In this document: positions 261 through 26,837 of the stretch, one piece after another | Layout of the letters: the number at the start of each line of letters is the position of its first letter | Position numbering within the stretch: position 1 is the stretch's first letter | Position numbers and translations under genes: made by a program | The notes under the pieces: generated by a model | What the model saw: the letters and a program-made list of their open reading frames with translations, nothing else | Told to the model about the DNA's origin: nothing | The model's database searches: none | Origin: a bacterium | GTDB lineage: Bacteria > Chloroflexota > Dormibacteria > Aeolococcales > Bog-877 | Reading direction: 5' to 3' | DNA: 38,824 nucleotides | Assembly (NCBI GenBank): GCA_021809895.1 | Contig: JAJZJU010000009.1 | Location: 1 to 38,824, forward strand

Positions 261-728
261 TCAGGTGAAAATGATCTGGCCTCCGGCTGCCTTCTCGTAG
301 AACTCCCCTACGGTGATGATCTCTTGGGCTTGGTCGATCAGATCAGCCTTGGTGAGGTGGAACAAGTCCACCGACGCCTTGCAGGCGAACAGGCCAGCGC
401 CGGTGTCCGAGATCATCTCGATGAACTCAGGGATTGAAGGGATGTCCAGTGCCGCAATGTTCTTTTCCATGTACCGAGTCATGAGACTGGCCATGCCGGG
501 CAACCCAGCGGCCCAGGTGGCAATGTGCAGGCCGGGATTTCCTACCGTGGCCAGTTTGATGTGTTCGTGGTACTTGCGGTTGATCGCGTCAAGTCCGAAG
601 AAGGTGAAGAACAGGTTGGTCTCGATACCCTCGGCTCTGGCCCCGTTGGCCATGATCAACCCCGGGTAGATCCCGTCGAGCGACCCCTTGGAGATGATCA
701 CAGAAACCTTCTCAATGCTGTCACTCAT
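261..728 (-). CDS. DsrE/DsrF-like sulfur-carrier protein
   Basis: This 155-residue soluble protein resembles the DsrE/DsrE2 family, whose members take a persulfide on a conserved cysteine and pass it to partners such as TusA or DsrC. The only cysteine is C116, in the segment G-L-F-A-C-K-A-S, which is where family members carry their acceptor cysteine. The N-terminus (V-S-V-I-I-S-K-G-S-L-D) fits the first strand of the fold. The ATG at 728 has a GAGGAG ribosome site. It is the last gene of a three-gene operon, 30 bases after the DsrC-like gene. Membership in the family is clear from the motif pattern; the sulfur partner is inferred from the neighbours. No catalytic enzyme domain is visible. 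Confidence 0.8.
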   Translation of the reverse strand: MSDSIEKVSVIISKGSLDGIYPGLIMANGARAEGIETNLFFTFFGLDAINRKYHEHIKLATVGNPGLHIATWAAGLPGMASLMTRYMEKNIAALDIPSIPEFIEMISDTGAGLFACKASVDLFHLTKADLIDQAQEIITVGEFYEKAAGGQIIFT

Positions 729-1100: not shown

Positions 1101-2351
1101 CTAGGACTGGTGCACCTTTCCGGCCTGAGGCATGTCCGAACTCACACCAGGGATGTTGCGACCGGGCAGCAGCGCGTGCCAGTAGAACCACTGAAACATC
1201 AGCTTGCCAAGATGGTTCAGCCGGGAGTCCTTGAGCAGAGGCAGCCCAACCTGGCTGGGGAAGTGGCCCGGCAGTGGCTCAGTTTCGTAGTTGAAGTCGA
1301 TCAGCAACGCCTTCCCGAAGCCGGTCTCGATGAAACAGTTGGCATGACCGTCGAAAGAGGCGCTCAATGGTTCACCAGACAGGAAGTGCTGGACGTTCTC
1401 GACCACAACCTCGCCTTGAAAGTGGGTTACGGAGCCCGCCTTAGACGCTGGCAGATTTGATGCGTCGCCGATCACGAATACGTTTCCCTTGGCCTTCGAC
1501 TGGAGCGTGTGCTCATCGGCGGGCACAAAGTTCAACTCGTCACCAAGGCCGGGCGAGGCGCCAACGTAGTCGGCTCCGCCATGGAGCGGAATCACCACTG
1601 CCAGATCGAAAGGGATCTCACGCCCGTCGAAGCTCACCAGGCGACCGTTCTGACCGTCGACCTGCCCCGTGTTGAACTCGGTGATGAGGTCGACGCCACG
1701 CTCCGCGAGCATCCCGGCGAGTCGCTTGGCGCTCACCGGCTTGGTGAAGGCGGCATCGAGCGGAGTCACATAGGAGAGTTGGACTTTGTCGCGGATGCCC
1801 CGCTCACGAAAGTACCAGTCGGCCAGGAAGCAGAATTCCAGGGGAGCCACGGGACACTTGATGGGCATGTCGATTGGGTTGACGACCACCCTGCCACCAC
1901 TAAAGGTAGCCAGCCCACCCTCCAACGCGGCGGCCCCCTCAGGGGTGTAGAAGGTGAACACCTTCTCCATCCAACCCTGTCCCGCCATGCCTTCAGTCTC
2001 CCCAGGCTGCAAGACTGCTCCGGTGGCGATCACCAAGAGATCGTAGGCAAGCTCCTGACCGTCGGCGAGAACGACGACATCGCGCGATGTGTCGACGCGC
2101 TCGATGGACCCAACCCGGTAGAGGATCCCCCTGTGCAGCTGTCGGCCCCGGGGTCGGATGATGTCCTCTGGATGGGTCAGCCCGAAGGGGACGAAGAGGA
2201 GACCTGGCTGGTACACGTGACAGTCGTCTTGGTCCACCACCGTGATGGTCGCCTGGGACTCCGCGTAAGCGTGCCGGAGCCTGTTCGCGGTCAGCGTGCC
2301 CCCAGTGCCTCCACCGAGAACTACGATCCGATGTGGAATTTCGCCATTCAT
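1101..2351 (-). CDS. Sulfide:quinone oxidoreductase-like FAD flavoprotein
   Basis: This 416-residue protein is of the sulfide:quinone oxidoreductase/flavocytochrome c sulfide dehydrogenase family, which oxidises sulfide to sulfur or persulfide and reduces quinone at the membrane. Seen: an FAD-binding G-G-G-T-G-G at 13-18; the H-V-Y-Q-P-G-L-L-F-V-P segment typical of SQR; an A-T-G motif; K-C-P-V-A-P with C166; C174; a second FAD motif ending G-D-A-S; and C339 in N-C-F-I-E-T-G. C166 and C339 are placed like the redox cysteine pair of SQR. I start at the ATG at 2351, which has AGGAGG 8 bases upstream, not at an in-frame codon 42 bases earlier. Other pyridine-disulfide-like flavoproteins share the fold, so the sulfide substrate rests on the cysteines and the sulfur-carrier neighbours. 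Confidence 0.82.
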   Translation of the reverse strand: MNGEIPHRIVVLGGGTGGTLTANRLRHAYAESQATITVVDQDDCHVYQPGLLFVPFGLTHPEDIIRPRGRQLHRGILYRVGSIERVDTSRDVVVLADGQELAYDLLVIATGAVLQPGETEGMAGQGWMEKVFTFYTPEGAAALEGGLATFSGGRVVVNPIDMPIKCPVAPLEFCFLADWYFRERGIRDKVQLSYVTPLDAAFTKPVSAKRLAGMLAERGVDLITEFNTGQVDGQNGRLVSFDGREIPFDLAVVIPLHGGADYVGASPGLGDELNFVPADEHTLQSKAKGNVFVIGDASNLPASKAGSVTHFQGEVVVENVQHFLSGEPLSASFDGHANCFIETGFGKALLIDFNYETEPLPGHFPSQVGLPLLKDSRLNHLGKLMFQWFYWHALLPGRNIPGVSSDMPQAGKVHQS

Positions 2352-2367
2352 CCTGGCCCTCCTAGTG

Positions 2368-2382
2368 GGTTGTACCACAACC
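2368..2382. promoter_or_regulatory. 15-bp inverted repeat upstream of the sulfur operon
   Basis: GGTTGT-ACC-ACAACC is a perfect 6-bp inverted repeat with a 3-bp spacer. It begins 17 bases upstream of the flavoprotein ATG, just outside its ribosome site. The position suits a repressor operator or a small 5'-UTR hairpin. A second short inverted repeat, AGGGT-GCGA-ACCCT, lies at 2406-2419. No convincing -10/-35 pair was found, and the regulator is unknown. Confidence 0.35.
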
Positions 2383-2538
2383 GGCCCCACCACGACCTAT
2401 CCTGAGGGTGCGAACCCTGCTGGCCATAGGCGATTTCCCCCTACCAACATCGACGATTCCACCTTCTTTGACCACTGCCAGCGGTCCCTTCGCACCTGGA
2501 TCAGTAAATAAAAAGCAGGAATTTCCACACAAGCGAAA

Positions 2539-7438: not shown

Positions 7439-8446
7439 TCAGTGCGGCGGCCTGGGTGGCGGCGACTCCTTGAGGAAGCGATAGTGCTCTCGCCAGACCA
7501 GTCGCGGCAGGCCCAGCCATCGGGGCAGGTCCCGCAGCCCGGGGATGAACGGCACCAACACCAGCAAGGTGGACAGAAAGCCCATGATGAGGACCACCAT
7601 CAGGTCGGCGTTGGAGGCGGTCGAAACTAGCGGGATCTGGTACCAGAAGGTGAACAGCCACAGCCACGACTGGCCGGGGTACCTTCCGGTCTCGTTTGTC
7701 ATCCCCCACTGAGAGCTGGCCAGATGCTGGGCAGCGGCCAGGCCCGGAAAGTAGTTCCCATCGCCCAAGAACAGCAGCGGTCCCGTGTAGTTGGTGTCGT
7801 AGAAGTGGCCACTACGGACCAGCAGGGAGTCCAGGGCTCCCGACCTGGCATCCTGCAAGAGCGCCTGCATGATCACATTCAGGGGGCCATAGGCACCGGC
7901 GGGGACCGCCACCACCACCTGGTCTTTGACTCGGGCGTGCTCCAGCGCCGCGGCGTAGGCCGTGAGCCAGCCGCGACGCTGAGCCGCCAACGCCTGCCGG
8001 TAGCGGACCAGGGCTGCCGCCAGCGCGGGCCGACCCACGCTGGCCAAGGACAGAGGGCCGAGAACGTATGCCTGCGCGGCATCCACGGGCTGGTGGACCC
8101 CGGCCCACACCTGCGGCGCCAAGGGCCCCAGGGTCTGAACCGAGCCGCCGACGTCGCCGGAATCCCTTCCGTCAGCGTCGATGTTGTACGGGGGTCCGTA
8201 GTCCGCACTGATGGTGGTTCCCCGGAGCTCTCCAGTGGCCGTCCGCACGAAGTCAAGCGGCTGCGCGCGCGCCCAGCTCTGGACCGTGACGGGGGGCTGG
8301 TCCGGGGACGACAGCACCACAGACAGGATCAACACCACCACCAGCATCACACCGAGGACGACCGTGATCTCCTTGACCAGGTCGTAGGGGGAGGTAGGGA
8401 CCCCGCGGTAGTACTCCTCCTGGGTCAGTCTCTCTCGCCTGGCCAT
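7439..8446 (-). CDS. Divergent cytochrome b subunit IV-like protein with a very long loop
   Basis: This 335-residue protein is encoded directly after a b6-like cytochrome b, with a TGATG start/stop overlap. One hydrophobic helix lies at about 27-46, then a hydrophilic stretch of about 210 residues, then a helix near 283-303 and a basic tail. The segment after the loop (P-G-Q-S-W-L-W-L-F-T-F-W-Y-Q-I-P, 257-272) can be laid against the cytochrome b EF loop P-E-W-x-x-L-x-L segment. The catalytic PEWY glutamate is missing and the third C-terminal helix is absent. It is therefore probably a highly altered C-terminal half of cytochrome b. The role of the loop is unknown. Assignment rests on gene order and this weak alignment. 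Confidence 0.6.
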   Translation of the reverse strand: MARRERLTQEEYYRGVPTSPYDLVKEITVVLGVMLVVVLILSVVLSSPDQPPVTVQSWARAQPLDFVRTATGELRGTTISADYGPPYNIDADGRDSGDVGGSVQTLGPLAPQVWAGVHQPVDAAQAYVLGPLSLASVGRPALAAALVRYRQALAAQRRGWLTAYAAALEHARVKDQVVVAVPAGAYGPLNVIMQALLQDARSGALDSLLVRSGHFYDTNYTGPLLFLGDGNYFPGLAAAQHLASSQWGMTNETGRYPGQSWLWLFTFWYQIPLVSTASNADLMVVLIMGFLSTLLVLVPFIPGLRDLPRWLGLPRLVWREHYRFLKESPPPRPPH

Positions 8447-9090
8447 CAGGCCCGTTCCTCAGGGGGCTTGACCACACCGCGGCGCCTGACCAGGATCACG
8501 TGAAACCCGACCATGGCGGTCACCAGGGCCGGAAACAAGACGATGTGCAGACCGTACATCTGACCGAAGTTCAGCACGTTGAAGAAGGCGCCCGCCCCGG
8601 TCGCGTTGACGGCGTCCTTGGCGTTGACCGCGATCCACTGGGCGTCGAAGTTCTGCTGCGAGATGTAACCCGTGAAGGCAGTGACGATCGCGATCAGAAA
8701 GATCACCACCCCCACCATCCAGGTGGCGGCCCGGCCGTCACGCCAGCCCTGGGCGAAGTACTGGCCCCAGAGGTGCAGGACCATGAATATGAAGAACATC
8801 TGCACAGACCAGAAGTGGACGCTGTTCATGAAGAGGCCCTGAGGTGACACGTGCCACCACTGGGGGCCGAAGAAGGCGAGGATCACCCCACTGGCAACCA
8901 CCAGGACCAGCGACGCGATCGCAGCCACCCCGAAGATGTAGACCCAGGATCCGACGTAGGCGGGCTCCTGGTCGGGGAGCAGGTGCTCGATCGGCAGCTC
9001 CCGCTGGATCCGCCGGCGCAGAAACACCGTCCAGCTTTTGGAGGCCTGGTCCCCGCCATCACCCAGCGGCGGTGTCTGCTCAACGCTCAC
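8446..9090 (-). CDS. Cytochrome b6-like di-heme cytochrome b, N-terminal half
   Basis: This 214-residue protein has four predicted helices and binds two b hemes in a quinol-oxidising complex. H92 and H106 (13 residues between) in helix B and H182 and H197 (14 between) in helix D are the four heme ligands. The 14-residue spacing is the b6f/menaquinol type rather than the mitochondrial one. The cd-loop differs from the norm: where cytochrome b usually has L-P-W-D-Q after T-G-Y, this has S-Q-Q-N-F-D-A-Q-W. The start is GTG at 9090, overlapping the upstream 55-residue gene by 11 bases. No Rieske gene sits in this operon; the only one is at 24819-25340. Confidence 0.82.
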   Translation of the reverse strand: MSVEQTPPLGDGGDQASKSWTVFLRRRIQRELPIEHLLPDQEPAYVGSWVYIFGVAAIASLVLVVASGVILAFFGPQWWHVSPQGLFMNSVHFWSVQMFFIFMVLHLWGQYFAQGWRDGRAATWMVGVVIFLIAIVTAFTGYISQQNFDAQWIAVNAKDAVNATGAGAFFNVLNFGQMYGLHIVLFPALVTAMVGFHVILVRRRGVVKPPEERA

Positions 9091-10894: not shown

Positions 10895-10947
10895 CGATGG
10901 CATCCTCCAAAAACGGCTGGCACGGGCACCCTCATAGTTCAGCCCGG

Positions 10948-10959
10948 TATCCTGACATC
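10948..10959 (+). promoter_or_regulatory. Leaderless-type -10 box of the cupredoxin gene
   Basis: TATCCT (10948-10953), a six-base spacer, then ATG at 10960. No ribosome site is present. The spacing is identical to that before the enoyl-CoA hydratase gene. Confidence 0.45.
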
Positions 10960-11454
10960 ATGTCGGTCCACCTCCCTGCTGCGGCCACCAGGCGTTTGCC
11001 CGGGCCACGCTTGGCGGTGGGGCTGCTGGCGGTGGTGGTCACCTTCATGGTGGCAGGGTGCGGCGCGTTCGGCGACGTGGGCCAGCCCACCGCCGCCCAC
11101 ATCCTGACCGCACCAGGAAACCCGGTACAGCAGGCCAACAGCAAGCTCTCCCTGCAAGTGCTGCCCAAGCCTCCCGCCAACCCCGAATACAAGGTGATCA
11201 TCTATCACAACGTGAACACCGTGGGCGAGTTCGTCCCCGAGACCCTGACGGTCCCGGTGGGGTCCATCGTGGAGTGGGTCTGGACGGATCAATACGACCA
11301 GCACAATGTCTGGTGGGTCGATCAGCAGCTGATCAACTCCCCCACCAAGGGAGCCGGCTTCAAGTGGGCCGTCAAGTTCCTGGCCCCAGGTGTCTATGAC
11401 TACTACTGCACCCTGCATCCGGGAATGCTAGGACGTGTTGTCGTCACCGGCTAG
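10960..11454 (+). CDS. Blue-copper (plastocyanin/amicyanin-like) lipoprotein
   Basis: This 164-residue exported protein has a lipoprotein signal: basic N-region, hydrophobic 18-31, and lipobox V-A-G-C with C34 as the lipidated residue. The mature part is a cupredoxin. H115 (D-Q-H-N-V) and C150-x2-H153-x2-M156 supply a complete type 1 copper site in the amicyanin/plastocyanin arrangement. It should carry single electrons on the outer face of the membrane. With no c-type cytochrome in the window, it is a candidate acceptor for a cytochrome b complex, but that link is inference. The following lipoprotein gene overlaps its 3' end by 20 bases. Confidence 0.85.
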   Translation: MSVHLPAAATRRLPGPRLAVGLLAVVVTFMVAGCGAFGDVGQPTAAHILTAPGNPVQQANSKLSLQVLPKPPANPEYKVIIYHNVNTVGEFVPETLTVPVGSIVEWVWTDQYDQHNVWWVDQQLINSPTKGAGFKWAVKFLAPGVYDYYCTLHPGMLGRVVVTG

Positions 11455-12439: not shown

Positions 12440-14053
12440 CTAATCCGGCACCATCAGGCCGTTGGCCGCCACCGCTGTCGCAGGCGGAGTTTCCGGGTAT
12501 GGGCGCGAGTAACCGACCGGATCGCTGGCCTCGGCAGGCGGCGCCGCCACCCTTGCGGGCCTGGCGCCGGCCGGGACGGCACCAGGAGCCGACCTCTGGA
12601 GGCGGGGCCGCCGGGCAGCCGCCACCGGCAGGGTGACGCGAATCGTGGTGCCGTGCCCGGGTGACGACGCGATGTCCAACCGTCCGTTGGCCAGGGCGAC
12701 CCGCTCCTGCATCCCGCGAAGCCCTATGCCAGCTGGTATTCCTCCCATCTCAAACCCAGCCCCGTCATCTCGTATGCGCGCACGCACGGTTCGCTTGGTG
12801 AAGGTCAAGTCGACCCGCACTCCGGTTGCACGTGCGTGGCGCTCCACATTGTGAAGCGCCTCCTGGAGGACCCGGTAGAGGTCGGTCTTCAGATCCCAAC
12901 TCAGATCCTGCTCAGAGCCAGTGACGTGCAGGACAGCAGGCGTCTCAGCGCGCTCCGCGAATCTCTCGACGAGTTGACGCAAAGATGCCACCAGACCGAG
13001 GTCGTCGAGGACAGGAGGCCGCAACCCGTCGGCCAGTTGACGCAACTGAACCACCACCTCCACCAACCCCTGCCGGACACTGTCGAGCTCGGCTCTTGAG
13101 CCGGCGGCGAGTTCGCCCCCATCGGAGATCAGCTCCAGCCGCCGCAGGAGGTAAATGAGAGTCTGGAGCGGCTCATCATGAATGTCCTGCCCGATTCGCC
13201 TGCGCTCCTGCTCCTGAACATGGAGTGCCTGGACCGCGTACCACTCGGCCAGCTGTTGGCGCCGAGCGGCCTCGGTCACGTCCTGAAAGATGATCTGCAA
13301 AAGCGGGCCGCCGCCGCTGTCGGTCACCAGGGTCGAGAGCGGTCGCAGGGTTCGCCTGGTGCCATCGAGCAAAACCACTGTGAACAGCCGCGGCGGGGTC
13401 TGTGTCAGCAGCCTCCGCGAGACGCCCGCACCGACCAGATCTGTCAGTTGGCGCCGACCAACGCGGGCGCCGAAGAGTTCCTTGGCGGCCGGATTAGCCT
13501 CTCGCAAGGCCCCGGAGCTGTCGGCCACCAGGGTCGGGGCCGAGCTGGCCTCGAAGAGCGCCCGGAAGCGTGCCTCAGCGGCACTGTGAGCGCTGATGGC
13601 GGCCTGGGCGCGTTGCCTGGCCATGGTCTCTCTCTCCACGCGCTGCCCAACCGCCACCGCCACCACGCAGATGAGCACGATCAGGGTTCCATCCGCCCAC
13701 ATGTCGGCTCGAGAATCGACCACGATCAGGTCAGGCAGCATCAGCGCGGTTCCCCAAGCGGCGCTGGCACATGCTCCCCCGATCCCAAACCTGAGGGCTG
13801 CGTAGACCACCGGCAGGAGGAAGAGGCCGATGGTGGGATAGTCGGGAGCTCCCAGAGGCAGTCTCACGGCACTGATGTCCAGCGCCAGGTGCCCCCCCAC
13901 CAGGGCCAGGATCAGCGCCTGGATGTACCAGAACCGACGGTCCCGCAGTGGGGGTCGAAGCACCTGTCCCAGGATCGCGGCCCAGTCTGTCGTGACCGCA
14001 TCGCGGCCAGTGTCTTGATCGGAACGGCCACCGCTGGCTCCGGCCCGATCCAT
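12440..14053 (-). CDS. Membrane PAS-domain sensor histidine kinase (HisKA_3/NarL-partner type)
   Basis: This 537-residue kinase has about four to five hydrophobic segments in residues 41-135, a short coiled linker, and a PAS domain at about 155-270 (F-R-A-L-F-E-A-S-S-A-P). A HisKA_3 dimerisation region follows with H292 in I-G-Q-D-I-H-D-E-P-L-Q, then an HATPase_c domain (N box near 390, D-D-G-A-G-F near 420). This type phosphorylates NarL/FixJ regulators. None is adjacent; the nearest is the DosR-like regulator at 19290. The ATG at 14053 overlaps the preceding stop (TGATG); an ATG at 14083 is an alternative. The C-terminal 60 residues are Ala/Pro-rich without a domain. Confidence 0.87.
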   Translation of the reverse strand: MDRAGASGGRSDQDTGRDAVTTDWAAILGQVLRPPLRDRRFWYIQALILALVGGHLALDISAVRLPLGAPDYPTIGLFLLPVVYAALRFGIGGACASAAWGTALMLPDLIVVDSRADMWADGTLIVLICVVAVAVGQRVERETMARQRAQAAISAHSAAEARFRALFEASSAPTLVADSSGALREANPAAKELFGARVGRRQLTDLVGAGVSRRLLTQTPPRLFTVVLLDGTRRTLRPLSTLVTDSGGGPLLQIIFQDVTEAARRQQLAEWYAVQALHVQEQERRRIGQDIHDEPLQTLIYLLRRLELISDGGELAAGSRAELDSVRQGLVEVVVQLRQLADGLRPPVLDDLGLVASLRQLVERFAERAETPAVLHVTGSEQDLSWDLKTDLYRVLQEALHNVERHARATGVRVDLTFTKRTVRARIRDDGAGFEMGGIPAGIGLRGMQERVALANGRLDIASSPGHGTTIRVTLPVAAARRPRLQRSAPGAVPAGARPARVAAPPAEASDPVGYSRPYPETPPATAVAANGLMVPD

Positions 14054-15882
14054 CACATACCGGTTTCGGTCCGTGGTCGACATGTGTCGAGGACCGCCTT
14101 CGCTGCCTCCCTGCCCTGGGCCATGGCCCCAACCACGGTCGACGGGCCCACCAGGGCGTCCCCCACCACCCAGATCCGGTCTCCTCTCGGGGCCTGAGCC
14201 GCATCCAGCCCTTGCGCCTCCTGCTGGCGCCAGAGCCAGGTCCACCAACTGGGCCGGAAGGCCATCTGGCGTGGATGCCGACGACGCAAAATTCGCCCCA
14301 TTCCCCTGTCGGCCGCCGGTGCCTCGGCCACCGCCAGAGTCACCTCCCGGGCAAGCGACAGGGACCCGACCGTACCTCCGGCCAGAATGCCGCTGGCGAG
14401 CCACCGACGCGGCGGGATCGCTCGCCTCAGATCGACCGGGGGCAGCGGTAGCTCGACCACCCCCCCCGCCACGTCAGAGGCCACCCGGTAGCCCAACGCC
14501 AGGACCACTCGGTTGACCGGAATTCTCTCCGACTCCCCCGGCAGTACCTGGGGGCGATCGCCGACCCGGCGCTGGCGGGTGCGCTGCAGCCACGCCGCGG
14601 AGACCCCGATGGAGTCGCCCTCCAGGCGCTGCACCGTGGTCGCGAAGCGCACCTCCACGCCCTCCTGACGGGCCTCCTCGAGCTCATCCGGGCGCACTCT
14701 GGTGAAGCGCTCGTCCATCCATTCCACCGCCACCGCGTCGGCGCCGAGCCGGCGCACGGTCCGCGCCACATCCATGGCGGTGTTGCCGCCGCCGATCACC
14801 AGGACGCGCGCCCCAGGTCCAATCTCGGGCAACAGTTCGCCGGCGAGCAGCACCCGCTTGGCCCGGTCGAGGAAGACGGTGGCGTCCTCGGTGCCAGGGA
14901 AGTCCATCCCCGGGATCGGAGGCACTATGGGGAGCGCCGCCCCATGGGCCAGGATCACGGCGTCATGGGCCTCCACCAGCTGCTCCAGCGACACGTCCCG
15001 GCCCAGCTCCGTGCCCGTCCGTAGGTCCAGCCCAGCCGCCAGCAGCGCATGGATGGGACGCTCCGCCACCTCGGTGGGCAGGGTGAAGTCCGGGATCCCC
15101 CAGCTCAGCACTCCCCCGGGATGCTCATCCTTTTCGAACATCGTCACCTTGACCCCTGCCTCAAGCAGTTTCCAAGCGGCGGCGCACCCGGCAGGACCAG
15201 AGCCGACCACGGCCACGGTCAGCCCCACCCCCGCGTTGGAACGCTGCTCCACCCCGGGGACTTGGGCCCGCTCGGTGATGAACCTCTCCAGATTGCCAAT
15301 GGAGACGGCCTGGCCCCCAGCCAGTGACCAGGAGCAGGCTCCTTCGCATTGGACTGTCTGGTCGCAGACCCGGCTGCAAATGTCCGGAAGCACGCTGGTC
15401 TCCCTCAGGATGGCGTGCGCTGCGACGAGATCACGGTCGATCACAGCCCCAATGAAGCCGCGGATGTCATTGTGAGCCGGGCACCCCTCCAGGCAGGTGG
15501 GATCCGGGCATTGCAAACAGCGCTTCGCCTCTGCCACCGCCTCGCGCCAACCGGAGAGTCCCCGCCGAACCTCACGGACGTTGCCAAGCAGAGCCCCCGG
15601 GTGAACCCTCGGCGGCTCCGCCCTGGGTGCCACCACCACTGGCCCGCTCACCCAGATGGCGGAGTAGGGGCAAACTCGTTGGCACTGGCGACACCCCACA
15701 CAGAGGCGCTCGTCGGCCTGGGCGATCCACCTCTCGGAGTCGAGGCGAAGCGCTCCGGTGGGGCACCGGATGACACATTCCTGACAGCCCACGCAGCGCT
15801 CAGAGTCCACATCCACGAAGGCGTGGTCCCCGCTGTCAGCTCCCGGCAGGACCAGCGCAGGGGTCGGCGACTGAGTCGTCAT
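14053..15882 (-). CDS. Ferredoxin-fused GltD-like NAD(P)H/FAD oxidoreductase
   Basis: This 609-residue protein begins with a two-cluster ferredoxin domain (C30-x2-C33-x2-C36-x3-C40 and C61-x2-C64-x2-C67-x3-C71). A second Cys-rich Fer4_20-type region follows (C122, C125, C130, C134 and more cysteines to about 175), as in glutamate synthase small subunit and dihydropyrimidine dehydrogenase. Then come an FAD-binding V-V-G-S-G-P-A-G near 225 and an NAD(P)-binding I-G-G-G-N-T-A-M-D near 365. It should pass electrons between NAD(P)H and low-potential iron-sulfur carriers. No glutamate synthase large subunit is nearby, so glutamate synthesis is unlikely. The ATG at 15882 has GGAG close by; a TTG three codons earlier is possible. 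The upstream polyferredoxin gene ends 46 bases before this start. Confidence 0.88.
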   Translation of the reverse strand: MTTQSPTPALVLPGADSGDHAFVDVDSERCVGCQECVIRCPTGALRLDSERWIAQADERLCVGCRQCQRVCPYSAIWVSGPVVVAPRAEPPRVHPGALLGNVREVRRGLSGWREAVAEAKRCLQCPDPTCLEGCPAHNDIRGFIGAVIDRDLVAAHAILRETSVLPDICSRVCDQTVQCEGACSWSLAGGQAVSIGNLERFITERAQVPGVEQRSNAGVGLTVAVVGSGPAGCAAAWKLLEAGVKVTMFEKDEHPGGVLSWGIPDFTLPTEVAERPIHALLAAGLDLRTGTELGRDVSLEQLVEAHDAVILAHGAALPIVPPIPGMDFPGTEDATVFLDRAKRVLLAGELLPEIGPGARVLVIGGGNTAMDVARTVRRLGADAVAVEWMDERFTRVRPDELEEARQEGVEVRFATTVQRLEGDSIGVSAAWLQRTRQRRVGDRPQVLPGESERIPVNRVVLALGYRVASDVAGGVVELPLPPVDLRRAIPPRRWLASGILAGGTVGSLSLAREVTLAVAEAPAADRGMGRILRRRHPRQMAFRPSWWTWLWRQQEAQGLDAAQAPRGDRIWVVGDALVGPSTVVGAMAQGREAAKAVLDTCRPRTETGM

Positions 15883-15928
15883 CAGCTCCAACCCCAGATC
15901 CGAATCAACCGGTCCTCGAGGGCGATCA

Positions 15929-17479
15929 TCATGGCGCTCCCCCCATGCTCACGTACAAGGCTGCCACCGCCAACCCGCTGAGGCAGACCGCTGCGAGGCT
16001 GACCGCCCGCAGCCTCCCCAGATGGGCGGTCAGCGGTCGCAGATCACGGCCCGAGATCTTCCAGGTGGCGTAGGCAGCTCCCAGGGTTCCAATCGCCGTC
16101 ACCACGACCTGGCTGATCACAACCCCTCTCGGGGACAGGATCTCAAAGTTGTAGAGGGAAGAATGGGCGGTCCCGAACAGGTTCCACCCGAATCCGAAGG
16201 GATCTGAAATCGCCGGGATGATGCGGGCCCCGTGATACCAGAAGCGGGGCAGCTGCCGGGACAGATAGTCGGACGCCATCAGCGGGATGAGGCCGTAGGC
16301 CATCGGCGCAAACCAGGCCGCGAATGAGCCCGCTCGGCCGGGAACTCGGCTGAGCCCTTTGACCATGGCCACGCTGCGCTTGGCCAGCATCTCCCGAGTG
16401 GCCCAGGCGTAGGCGCCCACCAACAGCGCCACCACCGCGATGATGGCGAGGTAATCCAAAGGATTGGGGTAGCCCGGGAACCCAGTGGTGCGGTTCAGCC
16501 AGCGGTCCAGGGGCTGGTAGAAGGGCAGCGCATTGACCTGTTGGAAGATCACCAGCCCGAAGAGGATTGCCACCGCCCAGGCCACATCGATACGGCGCCG
16601 CACCGGCGCGATCACCGAGGTCAGCGGCTTCTGGACGAAGACCCCCACGTTGTCATAGGGACAGTTCTTGATGCATTCCGTGCAGAGCCCGCACATCAGG
16701 TTTGAGCTGGCGCTGCCCGGCCACTCATACCAGGGGCACGGATAGCCGCGCTCACTTCCACGCATGCAGTCCTTGGTGGGGCAGGTGATGCAACGTTCGC
16801 GATCCCGCGTGCGCATCCCCGCCACCATCCCGGTGGAGCCCACGGTTCCGATCAGGGCCGTGAGGGGGCAGAGATATCTACAAAAAGTGCGCCGCTCGAA
16901 GATCAGGAATGTCACCAGCGCCGATCCGATGACGAAAAACACCAGAAAACTGGTGAATCGAGGATCACCGGGGCCGGCGATGTTGAAATACTCCTCGAAC
17001 CAGGTCAGGCCCAAGAACATGACCACAGAGGGAAGCAGCGCCCACTTGGTGAGCGCTCGGGGCCAGCGCAGGTTGAGCCCAATCGGGGTCGCGTTTCGCC
17101 TCCAGAACGTGTGCCGTTGCACCCACTCCCCGAGTCCCCCGAAGGGGCACATCACACACCAGCCCCGCCCGATTCCGACCATCAGCATGAAAACTGCGCA
17201 GAACCAGATGTACCAGGTGATCACGGTGGCGAAATTCCTGGTGGGAGCCACCAGGCCTGCCAGACCGGTCACGATCACCAACCAAAAGATGATCTGGTTG
17301 GGCAGGATCAGCATGAATTGGAAGGGCCGACTCTTCAGCGCCTTGGTGACCCACGGTTTCCGCGCGATGTCGAGATGTGGGTCGGTGGGACCGAAACGTT
17401 CCGCCTGCCCCTCGCGCGAGGCGGGCCGCAACTCACTGGGCAACTCCCTCACGGGCACTTCCCGAAGTGGCAATGCCAT
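15929..17479 (-). CDS. Polyferredoxin membrane protein (NapH/NosR/CcoG-like)
   Basis: This 516-residue integral membrane protein has about eight to nine hydrophobic segments and several cysteine groups: C108-x2-C111-P, C200-x3-C204-P, C230/C233/C238/C248, and a classic 4Fe-4S motif C263-x2-C266-x2-C269-x3-C273-P. The first two groups are like NapH/NosR-type membrane electron conduits, which move electrons between quinol and iron-sulfur partners. The C-terminal half adds four or five helices without cofactor motifs. The ATG at 17479 has AGGAG 9 bases upstream; an earlier in-frame start would overlap the regulatory region. It heads the operon with the ferredoxin oxidoreductase, PAS kinase and SRPBCC genes, and diverges from the DosS-like gene. 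Confidence 0.85.
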   Translation of the reverse strand: MALPLREVPVRELPSELRPASREGQAERFGPTDPHLDIARKPWVTKALKSRPFQFMLILPNQIIFWLVIVTGLAGLVAPTRNFATVITWYIWFCAVFMLMVGIGRGWCVMCPFGGLGEWVQRHTFWRRNATPIGLNLRWPRALTKWALLPSVVMFLGLTWFEEYFNIAGPGDPRFTSFLVFFVIGSALVTFLIFERRTFCRYLCPLTALIGTVGSTGMVAGMRTRDRERCITCPTKDCMRGSERGYPCPWYEWPGSASSNLMCGLCTECIKNCPYDNVGVFVQKPLTSVIAPVRRRIDVAWAVAILFGLVIFQQVNALPFYQPLDRWLNRTTGFPGYPNPLDYLAIIAVVALLVGAYAWATREMLAKRSVAMVKGLSRVPGRAGSFAAWFAPMAYGLIPLMASDYLSRQLPRFWYHGARIIPAISDPFGFGWNLFGTAHSSLYNFEILSPRGVVISQVVVTAIGTLGAAYATWKISGRDLRPLTAHLGRLRAVSLAAVCLSGLAVAALYVSMGGAP

Positions 17480-17559
17480 GCCTATGTTCTCCTGCTGGCC
17501 ATGGTGTCCTCCCGAGTGGTTATGACCCGAATCGTAGGTGGGACCACCCGCGGGTACCA

Positions 17560-17573
17560 GGGCCAAAGGTCCC
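17560..17573 (-). promoter_or_regulatory. DosR/DevR-like box for the polyferredoxin operon
   Basis: On the minus strand the sequence is GGGACCTTTGGCCC. It fits the DosR half-site pattern GGGAC...G(N)CCC known from mycobacteria. A possible -10, TACGAT (minus strand, 17536-17531), lies 23 bases downstream, which would put the box around -35 to -49, a typical position for DosR activation. The regulator gene next door keeps the DosR DNA-contact residues. Confidence 0.6.
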
Positions 17574-21733: not shown

Positions 21734-22204
21734 TCAGGCCCGAGAACCAGTCTCCGGGACTCCCCCGACCGGCTTGAGATTGCCGAAAATGTCCTGCTCG
21801 GCCTCCTCCCCTCCCCCGGCCAGTCCCCGTGGCGGCAGCTTGTCGGAGCCCTTCTCGGCCAGCCCCATCACGTGGTCGCTTATCCCCTCCTTGCGCAGCA
21901 CATTCCAGCCCTCCTCGAGGGAGAGGTCGTTCTGGACCACCACCAGGTCCCCTTCGGTGTGGACATCCCAGCCGATGTTCTCCAGCCTCCTCAGAACGTC
22001 GCTGACGATCGCTATACGCTCGTGGATGAGCTTTCCCGCCGCCGCCACCCTCACCGAAACCGGCAGGTTGGCCGGCGTGGGACGGTCGGGGAAACCGAAG
22101 GAGTGCATCTCCAAGTAGGTCTCCATGCCCCTGGATATCGGCTCCCTGGTCACCTCGGAGAACTCGTCAGCCGCCCTGCGGATCGGCCGGAAGATCAGCT
22201 TCAC
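21734..22204 (-). CDS. Conserved-looking soluble protein of the bc/bd operon, unknown function
   Basis: A 156-residue protein with no signal peptide, membrane helix or cysteine. It has a mixed alpha/beta pattern (V-S-V-R-V-A-A-A-G-K-L-I-H-E-R-I-A-I-V, then W-D-V-H-T-E-G-D-L-V-V-V) and a Gly/Glu-rich C-terminus. It starts with GTG overlapping the CydA-like stop by 4 bases (GTGA), so it is translated with the oxidase subunits. It may be an assembly factor or peripheral subunit, but nothing in the sequence shows this. I do not recognise the family. Confidence 0.7.
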   Translation of the reverse strand: MKLIFRPIRRAADEFSEVTREPISRGMETYLEMHSFGFPDRPTPANLPVSVRVAAAGKLIHERIAIVSDVLRRLENIGWDVHTEGDLVVVQNDLSLEEGWNVLRKEGISDHVMGLAEKGSDKLPPRGLAGGGEEAEQDIFGNLKPVGGVPETGSRA

Positions 22205-23601
22205 GGGTGGGTCTCGACGGGCAGGATCACGGACACGCCCGAGTTGCTGGCGGGGCCCTGCAACGCAGGCCCGGTCGAGCTGGGGGGCGAGTAGTTCTGC
22301 TGTTGATTGATCAGCATGTGGTTGGTGATCAGGAACGGCCCGCGACTGTTCTCCCGAATGAAGCCCATCAGGGCCATGATCAACGACACCGCCACGCCGA
22401 CCGCGATCAGGGAGATGGCCTGGCCCCGACCCGCGTCACCCCAGCGCAGCTTGCCCCGGCTGACGTACTTCAAATAGGTGGTGAGAGCCACGATGGTGAC
22501 CCCGGTGAAGGCGACCAGCGCGGTCAGCTTCCAGGGGATCATGGCGCCCCAGGGGATGAGCAGACCTCCCTGCCAGATGGGCACGTTGGCGTTGGCCGCG
22601 AAGACGCTCTCGTAGCTCCAGGCCAGCGAGGAGGGCGTGGAGATGAGCATCCAGGCCCCGAAGGAGAGCAGGGTACAGACGGCGAGCGCCGGCGAGCGAA
22701 ATCCGCTGGCCCTGACCCGTCGCCACAGATAGAAGATGCCCACGGTGAAGATCGCGCCCAGCAGGAACACCTGGAACAAGAAGGCGACACTGAGCCCTCC
22801 CAGCATCATGTCGTACCAGGAGGCGTAGGCGTGCAGCTGGATCTCCTTGGCGTACTCCCAACCCACCAAGGGCTGCGCGATCGTGAACCCGATCGCGTAG
22901 ATGAGGCCGTAGTGCCCCATCCAGTCGAGGTAGGGACGGACATCTGGGCGGTGTCCGCTGCGCAGCAAAAGCCGGATTCCGGCGGTCAGGGCGATGATCG
23001 CGCCCGCCCAGGCGATGTTGCCAACCATGCGGTGGATCTCGAGCGGGATCTCGGTCGGGTTCATCATGATCGCCGGGAGATTGAACGCGTTGCGAGGGGT
23101 CAGCATGTAGGAGGCGACCATGTTGATCAGCAGCATCTGCAGCTCGGCGTTGATGAAGAGCAGGACCTCGAGCCCCACTCGAAGCCCTCTGACGCGACCG
23201 AGCCGATCCCAGCGGGCGTAGAGGGGATACAGGCATATGATCTCGCCCACGAAGGCAGCCGCCTCCGCCACCAACGGCCAGAACAGAACCCTCTGGACGT
23301 CGATCCAGAAGTGCGCCCACAGCCCGAGGAACAGGATCATGACCGCGAAGATCGCCAACGATCCCCCGACCGCGAAGGTGGCACCGAGCGCTGTAACCAG
23401 ACCCTTTGAGAACCGGTCGTAGCGCTCGCTCTTGCGCTTCCAACCGACAAAGTCCGAGACCGCCAGGATGATGTAGCCGCCCTGCTGCCAGGCCGCGAAC
23501 TGGACATGGGTCAGCATCAGTAGCGCCACCAGAGCGGTGGCCACCCCGGTCGAGATCGGGACCTGGGTGAGCTGGGGTGTGGCGGCGGCTAAGAGTGGCA
23601 T
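22201..23601 (-). CDS. CydA-like cytochrome bd oxidase subunit I homologue
   Basis: This 466-residue protein with about nine hydrophobic segments resembles CydA. H32 in helix I (L-T-H-V-Q-F) sits where E. coli H19 does. E113 and E120 followed by A-R-W-D-R-L match the E107 region and G-W-D-R-L. H190 (L-E-I-H-R-M-V-G-N-I-A) matches H186. I-R-E-N-S-R-G-P (415-422) matches E-V-G-R-Q-P. The long Q-loop of classical CydA is missing, as in the divergent quinol oxidase groups found in Nitrospirota, Chloroflexota and archaea. It starts 1 base after the cytochrome b stop. No cydB or cydX is present; the partner is probably the second CydA-like protein. Confidence 0.82.
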   Translation of the reverse strand: MPLLAAATPQLTQVPISTGVATALVALLMLTHVQFAAWQQGGYIILAVSDFVGWKRKSERYDRFSKGLVTALGATFAVGGSLAIFAVMILFLGLWAHFWIDVQRVLFWPLVAEAAAFVGEIICLYPLYARWDRLGRVRGLRVGLEVLLFINAELQMLLINMVASYMLTPRNAFNLPAIMMNPTEIPLEIHRMVGNIAWAGAIIALTAGIRLLLRSGHRPDVRPYLDWMGHYGLIYAIGFTIAQPLVGWEYAKEIQLHAYASWYDMMLGGLSVAFLFQVFLLGAIFTVGIFYLWRRVRASGFRSPALAVCTLLSFGAWMLISTPSSLAWSYESVFAANANVPIWQGGLLIPWGAMIPWKLTALVAFTGVTIVALTTYLKYVSRGKLRWGDAGRGQAISLIAVGVAVSLIMALMGFIRENSRGPFLITNHMLINQQQNYSPPSSTGPALQGPASNSGVSVILPVETHP

Positions 23602-23602
23602 A

Positions 23603-24817
23603 TCAAAGGTTGAAGAGGCGGCCCACGGCCAGCATGGCCTCGAAGACGAGGAACAGGACCGTGAAGAGTCCGGGGACCATCACCTCCGGCCTCCGCCAGG
23701 GCTCCCGACCGGGGGTCCGGTCAAGGAAGGGTACCAGCATGAGAAGGGTGGTACCTATGCCGGGGACGACGAACACGCCGACTGGGATCATCCAGGCCTG
23801 CGGGAACTGGACCAGAAGCTGGTCCAGAGGCAGGAAGAACCACTCCGGAGTGGGCACGTAGTTGAGGGCGGCCGGGTTCGCCGCCCTCTCCAGCGGTGCC
23901 CCCACCACGATCGCCATCACGAAGATGATCAGGACCAGGGCGAAGCTCACCACCGCGTCCTTGAACACCTGGGAGGGGAAGAACTCGTCCAGGTCGACAG
24001 GTACCGCGTAGCCTGGATCGCTGGGCAGGGCGGGGTAGGGAGCCTCCGCGGCCGCCATCCGTCGGGAGCGCTCAACCTCGGTCTCCTCCTCCACCCCCTC
24101 GTAGTTCACCCAGGAGCCGTGCTCGCCGTGGCGCCGCAGCAGGATCAGGTGCAGCCCGATCATCGGCACCAGAAGTGCCGGTAGCAGCCAGATGTGGATG
24201 GCGAAGAAGCGGGTCAGGGTGGCCGGTCCCATCTGGGGACCGCCTCGCAGGATCTCCTCGATCTGGGTGCCGAAGAGCGGGAAGTAGCTGATCACGTGGG
24301 TCACCACGGTCGCCGTCCAGTAGGCCGCCTGGTCCCACGGCAGCATCGACCCGGTGATTCCCAAGCCAAGGACGAGCAGGAATAGCACCACCCCGATGAT
24401 CCAGTTGAGTTCCCTGGGCTTCTTGTAGGAGCCGCTGACAAAGGTGCGGACCATGTGCAGCCCGATCACGATGAAGAGGATGTAGGCGCCCCAGAGGTGC
24501 ATCCCCCTGACGATCGCGGCGAACTCGTCGTGGTGTTCGATGAAGTTGAGGCTCTCCCACGCCTCGGTGGTGGAGGGCACGTAGGTCCAGAGCAGGAACA
24601 TCCCGGTAACGATCTGCAGGATGATCACGATCAGGGTTGCGGACCCCAGCGAATACGCCCATGCACCGCGGCGTGGCACCGCCTCGTAAAGCAGCTGGTG
24701 CATGAGGTCGGTGACCCCCAGGCGCTCGTCCACCCAGCGATAGGTGGTGGCCATCAGCCCGGAAACCGGGCGCGTCAGCTTGGCCGCGATCGGACTCCGC
24801 TCCAACCCCTGGGCCAA
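23603..24817 (-). CDS. Full-length cytochrome b of a bc-type quinol complex
   Basis: This 404-residue protein fuses both halves of cytochrome b. Heme ligands are H107 and H121 (13 between) and H208 and H223 (14 between, b6f/menaquinol type). The Qo-site motifs L-P-W-D-Q and P-E-W-F (PEWY variant) are present. The C-terminal part has three helices. I choose the TTG at 24817, just past the Rieske stop, because GAGGGG lies about 7 bases upstream; the first ATG is at 24754. It stands between the Rieske gene and a CydA-like gene, so quinol oxidation here is probably coupled to a bd-like oxidase. Confidence 0.93.
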   Translation of the reverse strand: MAQGLERSPIAAKLTRPVSGLMATTYRWVDERLGVTDLMHQLLYEAVPRRGAWAYSLGSATLIVIILQIVTGMFLLWTYVPSTTEAWESLNFIEHHDEFAAIVRGMHLWGAYILFIVIGLHMVRTFVSGSYKKPRELNWIIGVVLFLLVLGLGITGSMLPWDQAAYWTATVVTHVISYFPLFGTQIEEILRGGPQMGPATLTRFFAIHIWLLPALLVPMIGLHLILLRRHGEHGSWVNYEGVEEETEVERSRRMAAAEAPYPALPSDPGYAVPVDLDEFFPSQVFKDAVVSFALVLIIFVMAIVVGAPLERAANPAALNYVPTPEWFFLPLDQLLVQFPQAWMIPVGVFVVPGIGTTLLMLVPFLDRTPGREPWRRPEVMVPGLFTVLFLVFEAMLAVGRLFNL

Positions 24818-24818
24818 C

Positions 24819-25340
24819 TCAGTTCCCCTCGGTGAGGACGTTGCGGACGTAGAGCGTGGTGCCGACCAGCTTGTGCTGGTAGCGGAAAAGCGGTTTCGGC
24901 GGCGGCCCGGCGATGTTGGTCCCTTCCATGCTGTACTCCCCGCCGTGGCAGGGGCAGAAAAAGACGTTGAGGTTGATGTCCCAGTGCACGTCGCACTGCA
25001 TGTGGGTGCACACATTTGAGAGCGTGATCAGCTGCACCTGGTTGGAGAGGTTCACCTTCACCACGTAGACGGTGCGAGGAACCGGCGGCACCTGCCAGGC
25101 GTCGCCTCCCTGGTTGAGCATCACCACGTAGGCGGTCGGGACCCCCACCGGCACGTGCTTGATGTCAGCCACCAGGACCCAGGGCTGTTTGAACTTGTAA
25201 AAGGCGGGACTCAAGATCGAGCCCACAATCGGCGCCGCGATCAGCAGGCCCGTCCCGGCCCCGGCCGCGTTGATCCCCATGATCATGAACTTGCGGCGGG
25301 ACATACGCCGCTTGGACCTCGGCAGCTGCGCCTCAGCCAT
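24819..25340 (-). CDS. Rieske 2Fe-2S protein
   Basis: This 173-residue protein has a twin-arginine-like N-terminus (M-S-R-R-K-F-M) and one membrane anchor (about 17-45), then the Rieske fold. Cluster ligands are C111-T-H113 and C129-P-C131-H132, with C116 and C131 forming the usual disulfide. The Pro loop G-P-P-P-K-P follows. The ATG at 25340 overlaps the upstream two-helix protein gene by 8 bases. It is the only Rieske gene in the window and could serve either cytochrome b complex. Confidence 0.95.
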   Translation of the reverse strand: MAEAQLPRSKRRMSRRKFMIMGINAAGAGTGLLIAAPIVGSILSPAFYKFKQPWVLVADIKHVPVGVPTAYVVMLNQGGDAWQVPPVPRTVYVVKVNLSNQVQLITLSNVCTHMQCDVHWDINLNVFFCPCHGGEYSMEGTNIAGPPPKPLFRYQHKLVGTTLYVRNVLTEGN

Positions 25341-25566
25341 TGCCCTGGACCACGATCAGGATCAGCAGGGAAAGGCATAGCCCCAAGAAGAAGACCATGG
25401 TGAAGGTGCTGGCACCGATCGTGAGCCAGGCTGACATGGGGTCCCCGACCGAGAAGAGTTGGCGAACCCGACGCATCGCCATGGTGAAACCCACGATGGT
25501 GATGGCGAAGAACCCGGTGATGATGATGCCGAGATACCAGGCCGACTCGAAGTACTGATAGCTCAC
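25333..25566 (-). CDS. Small two-helix membrane protein of the bc/bd operon
   Basis: This 77-residue protein has hydrophobic segments at about 10-30 and 45-73, separated by a basic loop (R-R-V-R-Q-L-F). The start is GTG, overlapping the CydA-like stop by 4 bases, and the end overlaps the Rieske start by 8, so translation is coupled on both sides. It is probably a structural subunit, by analogy to the small CydX/CydB-like or PetL-like partners. No motif names it. Confidence 0.72.
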   Translation of the reverse strand: MSYQYFESAWYLGIIITGFFAITIVGFTMAMRRVRQLFSVGDPMSAWLTIGASTFTMVFFLGLCLSLLILIVVQGNG

Positions 25567-26837
25567 GGCAGCACCCCAGGAGGAGCATCGAAGTTCTGAG
25601 CCGACTGATGCAGGCTGAGCAGGCAGGCGCTCTGGCCGGTGGTCTGGTCGATCCCACAGGGTAGCTTGGCGTTCTCCTTGATCACGCCCATGTAGATGGA
25701 GAGGATGGCGGCCGCCAATCCCACCACCACGATCCCCCGGCTGGCGGCCGGGCTGATCCGCAGAGTCAGTGCCCCAGCCTGCCGCAGAGAGCGGATGTAG
25801 AGAACCAGGTTCGCCGCCGTCGCCAGGAAGGCGATAAGGAGGGCGACGTAACGCAGCAGGACCACCTGTTGGGGGATCACCGATGCCGGCAGAGCGACTC
25901 CCGCCATCCCCAGCAGTGCTACCACGGTGAGGGTGGCGGCTGGGCCACTCTCGGCCACCTCCTGGTTGTGGCGCCAGAATACCCAGTTGGCTCCCAACAC
26001 CACGATCGCCAGCAGCACCACCTGGCCAACGAACATCGACCCCGAGCCGAAGATGAAGAGATTGTCGAAGGTCCCCGGAGCCGCAGTCTTGATGGTGTCA
26101 GCCAGCAGGAAGCCGGTGATCGGCTGGGCCATGAGGAAGATGGACCCAATCCCGAAATTGATCCTGGCTGCCCAGCGCTGATAGATGGCCTCGGCCTCGG
26201 TCTTGGCCCGGCGGCCCCGCCAGACGGCGACGGCCGCCAGGAACAGCGCCGCCCAGGAGAGGGTCGCTCCCGCGTAGTGGAAGAGGAGCGGCCAATAACT
26301 CGGAGAGAACATCGAGTGGGCCGCGTTGACGGCGGTGCCGGGGGTGAGCGCGTAGCTGTCCAGCTGGACGATCATGAAGAGAAACAGGAACTGGATGGCG
26401 GCGAAGATGAAGCCGACCGCCAGATGAAGTCGGGGGTTCATCTTGTCCCACCGGTAGACGTAGACCAGCAGAAGGGGAATCCCCACGAAAAAGCTGGCGA
26501 ACGCGATGGTCAAAGGCAGCAGCAGCAGGTTCAGCAGAGTGCCGATCAGGCGCCCATAGAGCCCGGTCAGGAGCACCACCGCGAAGACGGCCCAGGTGGC
26601 GCCGAAGCTGTACAGGTACAGGATCGCGTGGGCCAGGGTCTTCGAATAGCGCAGGCAGTGCTCGTCTCCCCCGCGGCGGCGGCCGGCCAGCTCCATGAAG
26701 GGCATGATCGCGGACGAGCCCAGGATGAAGCCCACGACCACGATGTGGATCAGGAATACTGCCCCGATCGCAATCTCGGCCCCGAGGGTGCCGAAGGGCA
26801 GTCGTGGTTGTGGCACCGGGAAAGCTGACAGCAGCAC
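25563..26837 (-). CDS. Second CydA-like membrane protein (CydA'-type)
   Basis: A protein of about 424 residues with eight or nine hydrophobic segments. CydA features remain: H31 in helix I (F-L-I-H-I-V-V-V-G-F), Y-R-W-D-K-M (like G-W-D-R-L), H177 (L-L-F-H-Y-A-G) and K-E-N-A-K-L-P near the end. The acidic residues that precede the W-D-R-L motif in catalytic CydA are replaced (I-A-F-A-S-F-F-V-G-I). It looks like a duplicated, partly degenerate CydA acting as structural partner, comparable to CydA' in described CydAA' oxidases. GTG 26837 gives a natural N-terminus; a TTG at 26876 is the alternative. It is the first gene of the operon. Confidence 0.75.
   Translation of the reverse strand: MLLSAFPVPQPRLPFGTLGAEIAIGAVFLIHIVVVGFILGSSAIMPFMELAGRRRGGDEHCLRYSKTLAHAILYLYSFGATWAVFAVVLLTGLYGRLIGTLLNLLLLPLTIAFASFFVGIPLLLVYVYRWDKMNPRLHLAVGFIFAAIQFLFLFMIVQLDSYALTPGTAVNAAHSMFSPSYWPLLFHYAGATLSWAALFLAAVAVWRGRRAKTEAEAIYQRWAARINFGIGSIFLMAQPITGFLLADTIKTAAPGTFDNLFIFGSGSMFVGQVVLLAIVVLGANWVFWRHNQEVAESGPAATLTVVALLGMAGVALPASVIPQQVVLLRYVALLIAFLATAANLVLYIRSLRQAGALTLRISPAASRGIVVVGLAAAILSIYMGVIKENAKLPCGIDQTTGQSACLLSLHQSAQNFDAPPGVLP

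Follow-up and report, generated by a model that had tools for sequence, protein, structure and literature searches.

A conserved Dormibacterota gene unit linking a CydA pair to a Rieske/cytochrome b module: a candidate quinol:O2 oxidoreductase without cytochrome c

Within the cytochrome bd superfamily, the OR-N and OR-C families comprise CydAA′ enzymes (Murali et al. 2021, as cited in PMC10839748 and PMC12342949), and for the OR-N enzymes cytochrome c is the presumed electron donor (PMC10839748). In Nitrospirales, CydAA′ genes of type OR-N5 lie downstream of alternative complex III (PMC12342949). Genes for complex III, bd-like oxidases and several cytochromes c occupy one expressed region in Nitrospira moscoviensis, and a III–IV supercomplex has been suggested there (PMC6606698). 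The usual answer to what feeds CydA-like proteins that have no quinol site is an assumed cytochrome c. Here we describe an operon in which a CydA pair is fixed to Rieske and cytochrome b genes in a lineage apparently without cytochrome c, which makes the donor question directly testable.

The window, by which we mean the whole analysed stretch of 38,824 nucleotides (contig JAJZJU010000009.1), belongs to a Dormibacterota (Chloroflexota) genome of 2.5 Mb that is 86% complete. Six minus-strand open reading frames running from 26837 to 21734 encode a CydA-like protein, a two-helix protein, a Rieske protein, a cytochrome b, a second CydA-like protein and a soluble protein (Table 1). CydA1 and TM2 overlap by 4 bases, as do CydA2 and the soluble protein gene, and TM2 overlaps the Rieske gene by 8 bases; single-base gaps separate Rieske from cytochrome b and cytochrome b from CydA2. 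These coordinates agree exactly with the original prediction of six genes in this order and on this strand, with gaps of at most 1 base and overlaps of up to 8. CydA2, TM2 and the soluble protein gave no Pfam match above cut-off, and no canonical CydA was found in the source genome (86% complete), which holds no other PF01654 match.

Table 1. Genes of the operon and other genes discussed in the window.
Feature	Coordinates	Strand	Details
CydA-like protein 1 (CydA1)	25563..26837	-	424 aa from GTG 26837; 437 aa from TTG 26876; Pfam Cyt_bd_oxida_I 5e-14
Two-helix protein (TM2)	25333..25566	-	77 aa; two hydrophobic stretches
Rieske iron-sulfur protein	24819..25340	-	173 aa; Pfam Rieske 1.7e-8
Cytochrome b, full-length	23603..24817	-	404 aa from TTG 24817; Pfam Cytochrome_B 5e-47
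CydA-like protein 2 (CydA2)	22201..23601	-	466 aa; presumed catalytic subunit
Soluble protein	21734..22204	-	156 aa; accessory
Membrane protein with Fer4_5 (4Fe-4S) domains	15929..17566	-	adjoins the next gene
Pyridine-nucleotide oxidoreductase-like	14053..15891
Cupredoxin lipoprotein	10897..11454	+	plastocyanin/azurin-type; lipoprotein-like start
Second cytochrome b, divergent, half-length	8446..9090	-	214 aa; in 17/18 genomes of the window's family
Protein without Pfam family	7439..8446	-	335 aa; right after the half-length cytochrome b
Sulfide:quinone oxidoreductase-like flavoprotein	1101..2393	-	assigned by eye
DsrE-like protein	261..728	-	assigned by eye

On its predicted structure, CydA2 is a member of CydA despite the absent Pfam family. 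All ten PDB matches of the model (pLDDT 80) with E ≤ 0.001 in Foldseek are CydA chains (probability 1.00), and a profile built from CydA2 relatives finds Geobacillus CydA (5doq_A) at 5e-15. The CydA1 model (pLDDT 86) likewise folds best as CydA in Foldseek. TM-scores of the CydA-like models against CydA chains range from 0.45 to 0.68, indicating that the CydA fold is shared without close resemblance.

Active-site residues were compared by aligning 26 CydA1 and 26 CydA2 sequences to E. coli CydA. An equivalent of H19 is present in every sequence of both sets, and one of H186 in all 26 CydA2 and 25 of the 26 CydA1 sequences. E445 and R448 equivalents are each found in 25/26 CydA2 sequences; E445 is kept in 19/26 CydA1 sequences and missing in seven, and CydA1 has R or K at 448. 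Equivalents of E99 and E107 occur in CydA2 only, where the position of the window's E120 is Glu in 18/26 and Gln in 7/26. The corresponding residues of the window's CydA2 are H32 (H19), E113 (E99, an equivalence that depends on a one-residue alignment shift set by eye), E120 (E107), H190 (H186), E417 (E445) and R420 (R448), with K358 at the R391 position. In the window's CydA1, equivalents of H19, H186 and E445 are present, and E99/E107, M393 and the Q-loop are missing. The alignment thus bears out the earlier observation that E113 and E120 are kept in CydA2 and that the acidic pair is absent from CydA1. The superfamily features, namely the CydA fold with H19, H186, E445 and R448, are present most completely in CydA2, which looks like the catalytic member of the pair.

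K252 and E257 fall in a gap in all 26 CydA1 and all 26 CydA2 sequences, and neither set has a Met at 393. Both models carry two extra helices at the place of the E. coli Q-loop, and the ninth helix is absent. Since K252/E257, M393 and the Q-loop are all missing, the known quinol site is absent from both paralogs, and judging from these alignments neither should oxidise quinol directly. The operon has no CydB, with a further CydA paralog as the other subunit, and a canonical CydAB is ruled out by the missing quinol-site residues together with this gene content.

The Rieske and cytochrome b proteins show the sequence features expected of a Rieske/cytochrome b (bc) module. Both Rieske boxes (CTHMQC and CPCHGG in the window) are intact in 42/42 Rieske sequences. 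The window's cytochrome b has four haem histidines with a b6-like spacing of 13/14 and a PEWF Qo motif; PEW[FY] is found in 45 of 49 cytochrome b sequences, at least one of the remainder being a contig-end fragment and L028 and L074 truly lacking the motif. The operon's cytochrome b is present in 18/18 genomes of the window's family, and in 17 of these the only other cytochrome b is the divergent, half-length one, so that the operon holds the family's sole recognisable complex III. As for a cytochrome c1 or equivalent c-type subunit, no CxxCH protein was found within the class operon. Cytochrome b ends on the membrane side opposite the CydA N-terminus. TM2 occupies the same position in all complete class loci. 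The soluble protein is accessory: its gene adjoins the core in two families, the window's and its sister family, and was not found adjoining it in a third. We considered that it might be a decayed cytochrome c and rejected the idea, as it has no conserved His or Cys and no family match.

In a scan covering 84,980 species genomes, 43 loci were found, nearly all from Candidatus Dormiibacterota, Chloroflexi or metagenome-assembled genomes labelled just bacterium, Aeolococcus and Amunia included; the hosts are uncultured bacteria of soil and acid mines. The order CydA1-TM2-Rieske-cytochrome b-CydA2 was found in all 30 class loci that hold both CydA genes, at protein identities as low as 33–40%, and in none of them does the five-gene core include a CxxCH protein. 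Separate regions from 20 class genomes, mostly the same contigs, gave the same order, and the two additional loci among them (L101 and L113) also have no c-type cytochrome inside. Cytochrome b adjoins every class CydA2 whose contig extends upstream. The CydA1 and CydA2 trees show matching groups within the class; a tree built from class, Nitrospira and other Chloroflexota rows separates class CydA1 and CydA2 into distinct clades, its deep forks being tentative. With the core order in 30/30 complete loci, its recurrence is far beyond chance, and the conclusion that the CydA-like genes are inseparable from those for Rieske and cytochrome b within the class is supported. The check first proposed was a search for the six-gene order across genomes; what recurs throughout the class is the five-gene core, as the sixth gene was not found beside it in the third family. 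CydA-like genes occurring mostly without Rieske/cytochrome b genes would have told against a joint complex, and the class shows the opposite.

Outside the class, CydA, Rieske, cytochrome b and CydA genes occur in matching order in other Chloroflexota families (G084, G223 and G081), and in a Rubrobacteraceae contig cytochrome b adjoins CydA2. The CydA2 stop in G081 lies in an overlap with a monohaem cytochrome c gene, and a similar gene lies ~1.2 kb downstream of CydA2 in G223; none was seen beside the G084 cluster. A c-type cytochrome gene in the cluster of relatives had also been named as evidence against the original prediction; the genes of G081 and G223 tell in part against it outside the class, whereas no class operon was seen to have one. 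Given their place at the cluster end in these two genomes, electrons may ancestrally have passed through a carrier. The likely history starts from a CydA/Rieske/cytochrome b/CydA unit to which a cytochrome c could be added; the class lacks this copy in the operon, and the window's family lost all cytochrome c. Single CydA-like genes are found in other Chloroflexota, in neighbourhoods that, judged by eye, are unlike the operon's (L034, L035, L116, L117 and L118). Radical-SAM-like genes lie near those of L034, L116 and L117, with a stress-protein-like gene also near that of L034, and small cupredoxin-like proteins are encoded near those of L116 and L118 (all by eye).

Cytochrome c and its assembly proteins were surveyed in a class sample of 61 genomes, 11 from the window's family and 50 others. 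PF13442 (CBB3-type cytochrome c) was found in 46/61 genomes, 0/11 in the window's family versus 46/50 in the others, and PF01578 (CcsA/CcmC/CcmF) in 48/61, again 0/11 versus 48/50. Among 18 genomes of the window's family, ResB was found in none and PF00034 in one, as a weak match (E 5e-5) in a 64%-complete genome. An assembly gap was rejected as the cause, as both PF13442 and PF01578 are absent from all 11 family genomes (84–93% complete) and present in most other class genomes; by the same comparison, the missing cytochrome c is most likely a lineage trait. The window's family thus appears to have neither c-type cytochromes nor their assembly machinery, and the predicted absence of a cytochrome c from the operon extends to the class loci and, apparently, to the family as a whole.

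The family also retains a haem-copper oxidase. COX1 is present in all 11 of its members in the class sample, and the subunit II adjoining COX1 in G143 and G135 carries a CuA motif. The sulfocyanin SoxE was found in 7/7 sampled family genomes, and the cupredoxin lipoprotein of the window is a possible electron carrier. In this family a copper protein probably took over from cytochrome c as partner of the haem-copper oxidase. Since a CuA-type oxidase depends on a soluble donor, and sulfocyanin is available, the Rieske module probably serves another acceptor too. The window also encodes the flavoprotein and the DsrE-like protein listed in Table 1, which raises the possibility of sulfide oxidation into the quinone pool.

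From sequence and predicted structure, we consider it probable, though well short of certain, that the product of the operon is a cytochrome-c-free quinol:O2 oxidoreductase in which the Rieske/cytochrome b module feeds the CydA pair directly or via a cupredoxin. With greater confidence, we think it likely that the two modules share one electron pathway to O2. The cytochrome b/Rieske module would oxidise quinol in a Q cycle at its Qo site, as suggested by the unbroken Rieske boxes, the four histidines for haem and the PEWF motif. The high-potential electron would then pass from the Rieske cluster to a periplasm-side haem of the CydA pair, a direction in keeping with the absence of the Q-loop, K252/E257 and M393, by which the pair could not take electrons from quinol. 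This hop might be direct, with the CydA pair in place of cytochrome c1, or proceed via a small copper protein. CydA2 would reduce O2 at a haem site that includes H19, E445, R448 and the proton-path equivalents E99/E107, and CydA1 would stand in for CydB, perhaps carrying relay haems. With a Q cycle coupled to a bd-type site, each electron would bring about twice as much charge separation as in a classical bd oxidase. The operon is a candidate for a bd-family oxidase of higher energy yield and would help to explain respiration without c-type cytochromes in these Dormibacterota. Direct transfer from Rieske to CydA within a stable complex is a tentative proposal, to which we give somewhat less than an even chance. 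More tentative still is the full form of the model, a bd-family O2 reductase fed by Rieske inside one complex with neither cytochrome c nor a copper carrier, such that Q cycle and bd-type O2 reduction constitute a single energy-conserving quinol oxidase.

The modules might instead be separate enzymes, the Rieske/cytochrome b module reducing sulfocyanin or the window's cupredoxin, which would feed the haem-copper oxidase as well as the CydA pair, much as cytochrome c does elsewhere. The copper proteins, the COX1 and CuA motif of the family and the cytochrome c genes beside the G081 and G223 clusters all fit this arrangement; however, within the class operon no gene for such a carrier was seen, and the strict coupling of overlapping genes suggests co-assembly. 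We regard it as a live alternative, though the less likely one. A further reading, in which the CydA pair is a membrane haem wire or an alternative quinone reductase on Rieske/cytochrome b, for instance in reverse electron flow, and the haem-copper oxidase is the sole terminal oxidase, draws on the retention of that oxidase in all sampled family genomes, on the catalytic acids lost from CydA1 and on a proposal of reverse flow for a single bd-like cluster in Nitrospira (PMC6606698). We judge it improbable, since CydA2 keeps H19, E99/E107, E445 and R448, residues tied in E. coli CydA to the oxygen site and proton supply. That ordinary quinol-oxidising bd oxidase genes adjoin complex III genes by chance would agree with the CydA fold and with the Pfam match of CydA1, but CydB is missing, the Q-loop, K252/E257 and M393 are found in none of the 26 loci, and the gene order is fixed at ~35% identity; the residue comparisons largely refute this reading, which seems to us highly improbable.

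Like the OR-N/OR-C CydAA′ enzymes, the operon has coupled CydA paralogs, no CydB and no quinol site, and in the alignment this Q-loop gap recurs in the Nitrospira locus L078. The OR-N literature assumes a cytochrome c donor; the class operon encodes none, and the window's family seems to have none either, bar the weak PF00034 match. Rieske/cytochrome b genes are clustered with CydA-like oxidase genes in Nitrospira moscoviensis as well, but that region has several c-type cytochromes, and the study does not describe the compact five-gene core (PMC6606698). In the Nitrospirales OR-N5 arrangement the CydA pair also lies beside a quinol-oxidising module, but one of an unrelated kind, alternative complex III (PMC12342949). 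A bc-like module ahead of a CydA pair is therefore not in itself a new idea, and to call it mechanistically new goes too far; the novelty lies in the cytochrome-c-free form. We did not find this class-wide five-gene form in the open-licence literature; Murali et al. 2021 may mention the neighbourhood. E. coli CydAB shares the CydA fold, H19, H186, E445 and R448 with the operon's proteins, and differs in having CydB, the Q-loop, M393 and the ninth helix, with no extra helix pair at the Q-loop place. The actinobacterial bcc-aa3 supercomplex and Sulfolobus SoxABCD and SoxM also wire Rieske/cytochrome b to an oxidase, the Sox systems without cytochrome c; these use haem-copper oxidases, whereas the operon has bd-family proteins instead. 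With apparently no c-type cytochromes or proteins for their assembly, but a CuA haem-copper oxidase and sulfocyanin, the window's family is a bacterial parallel to the cytochrome-c-free acidophilic archaea.
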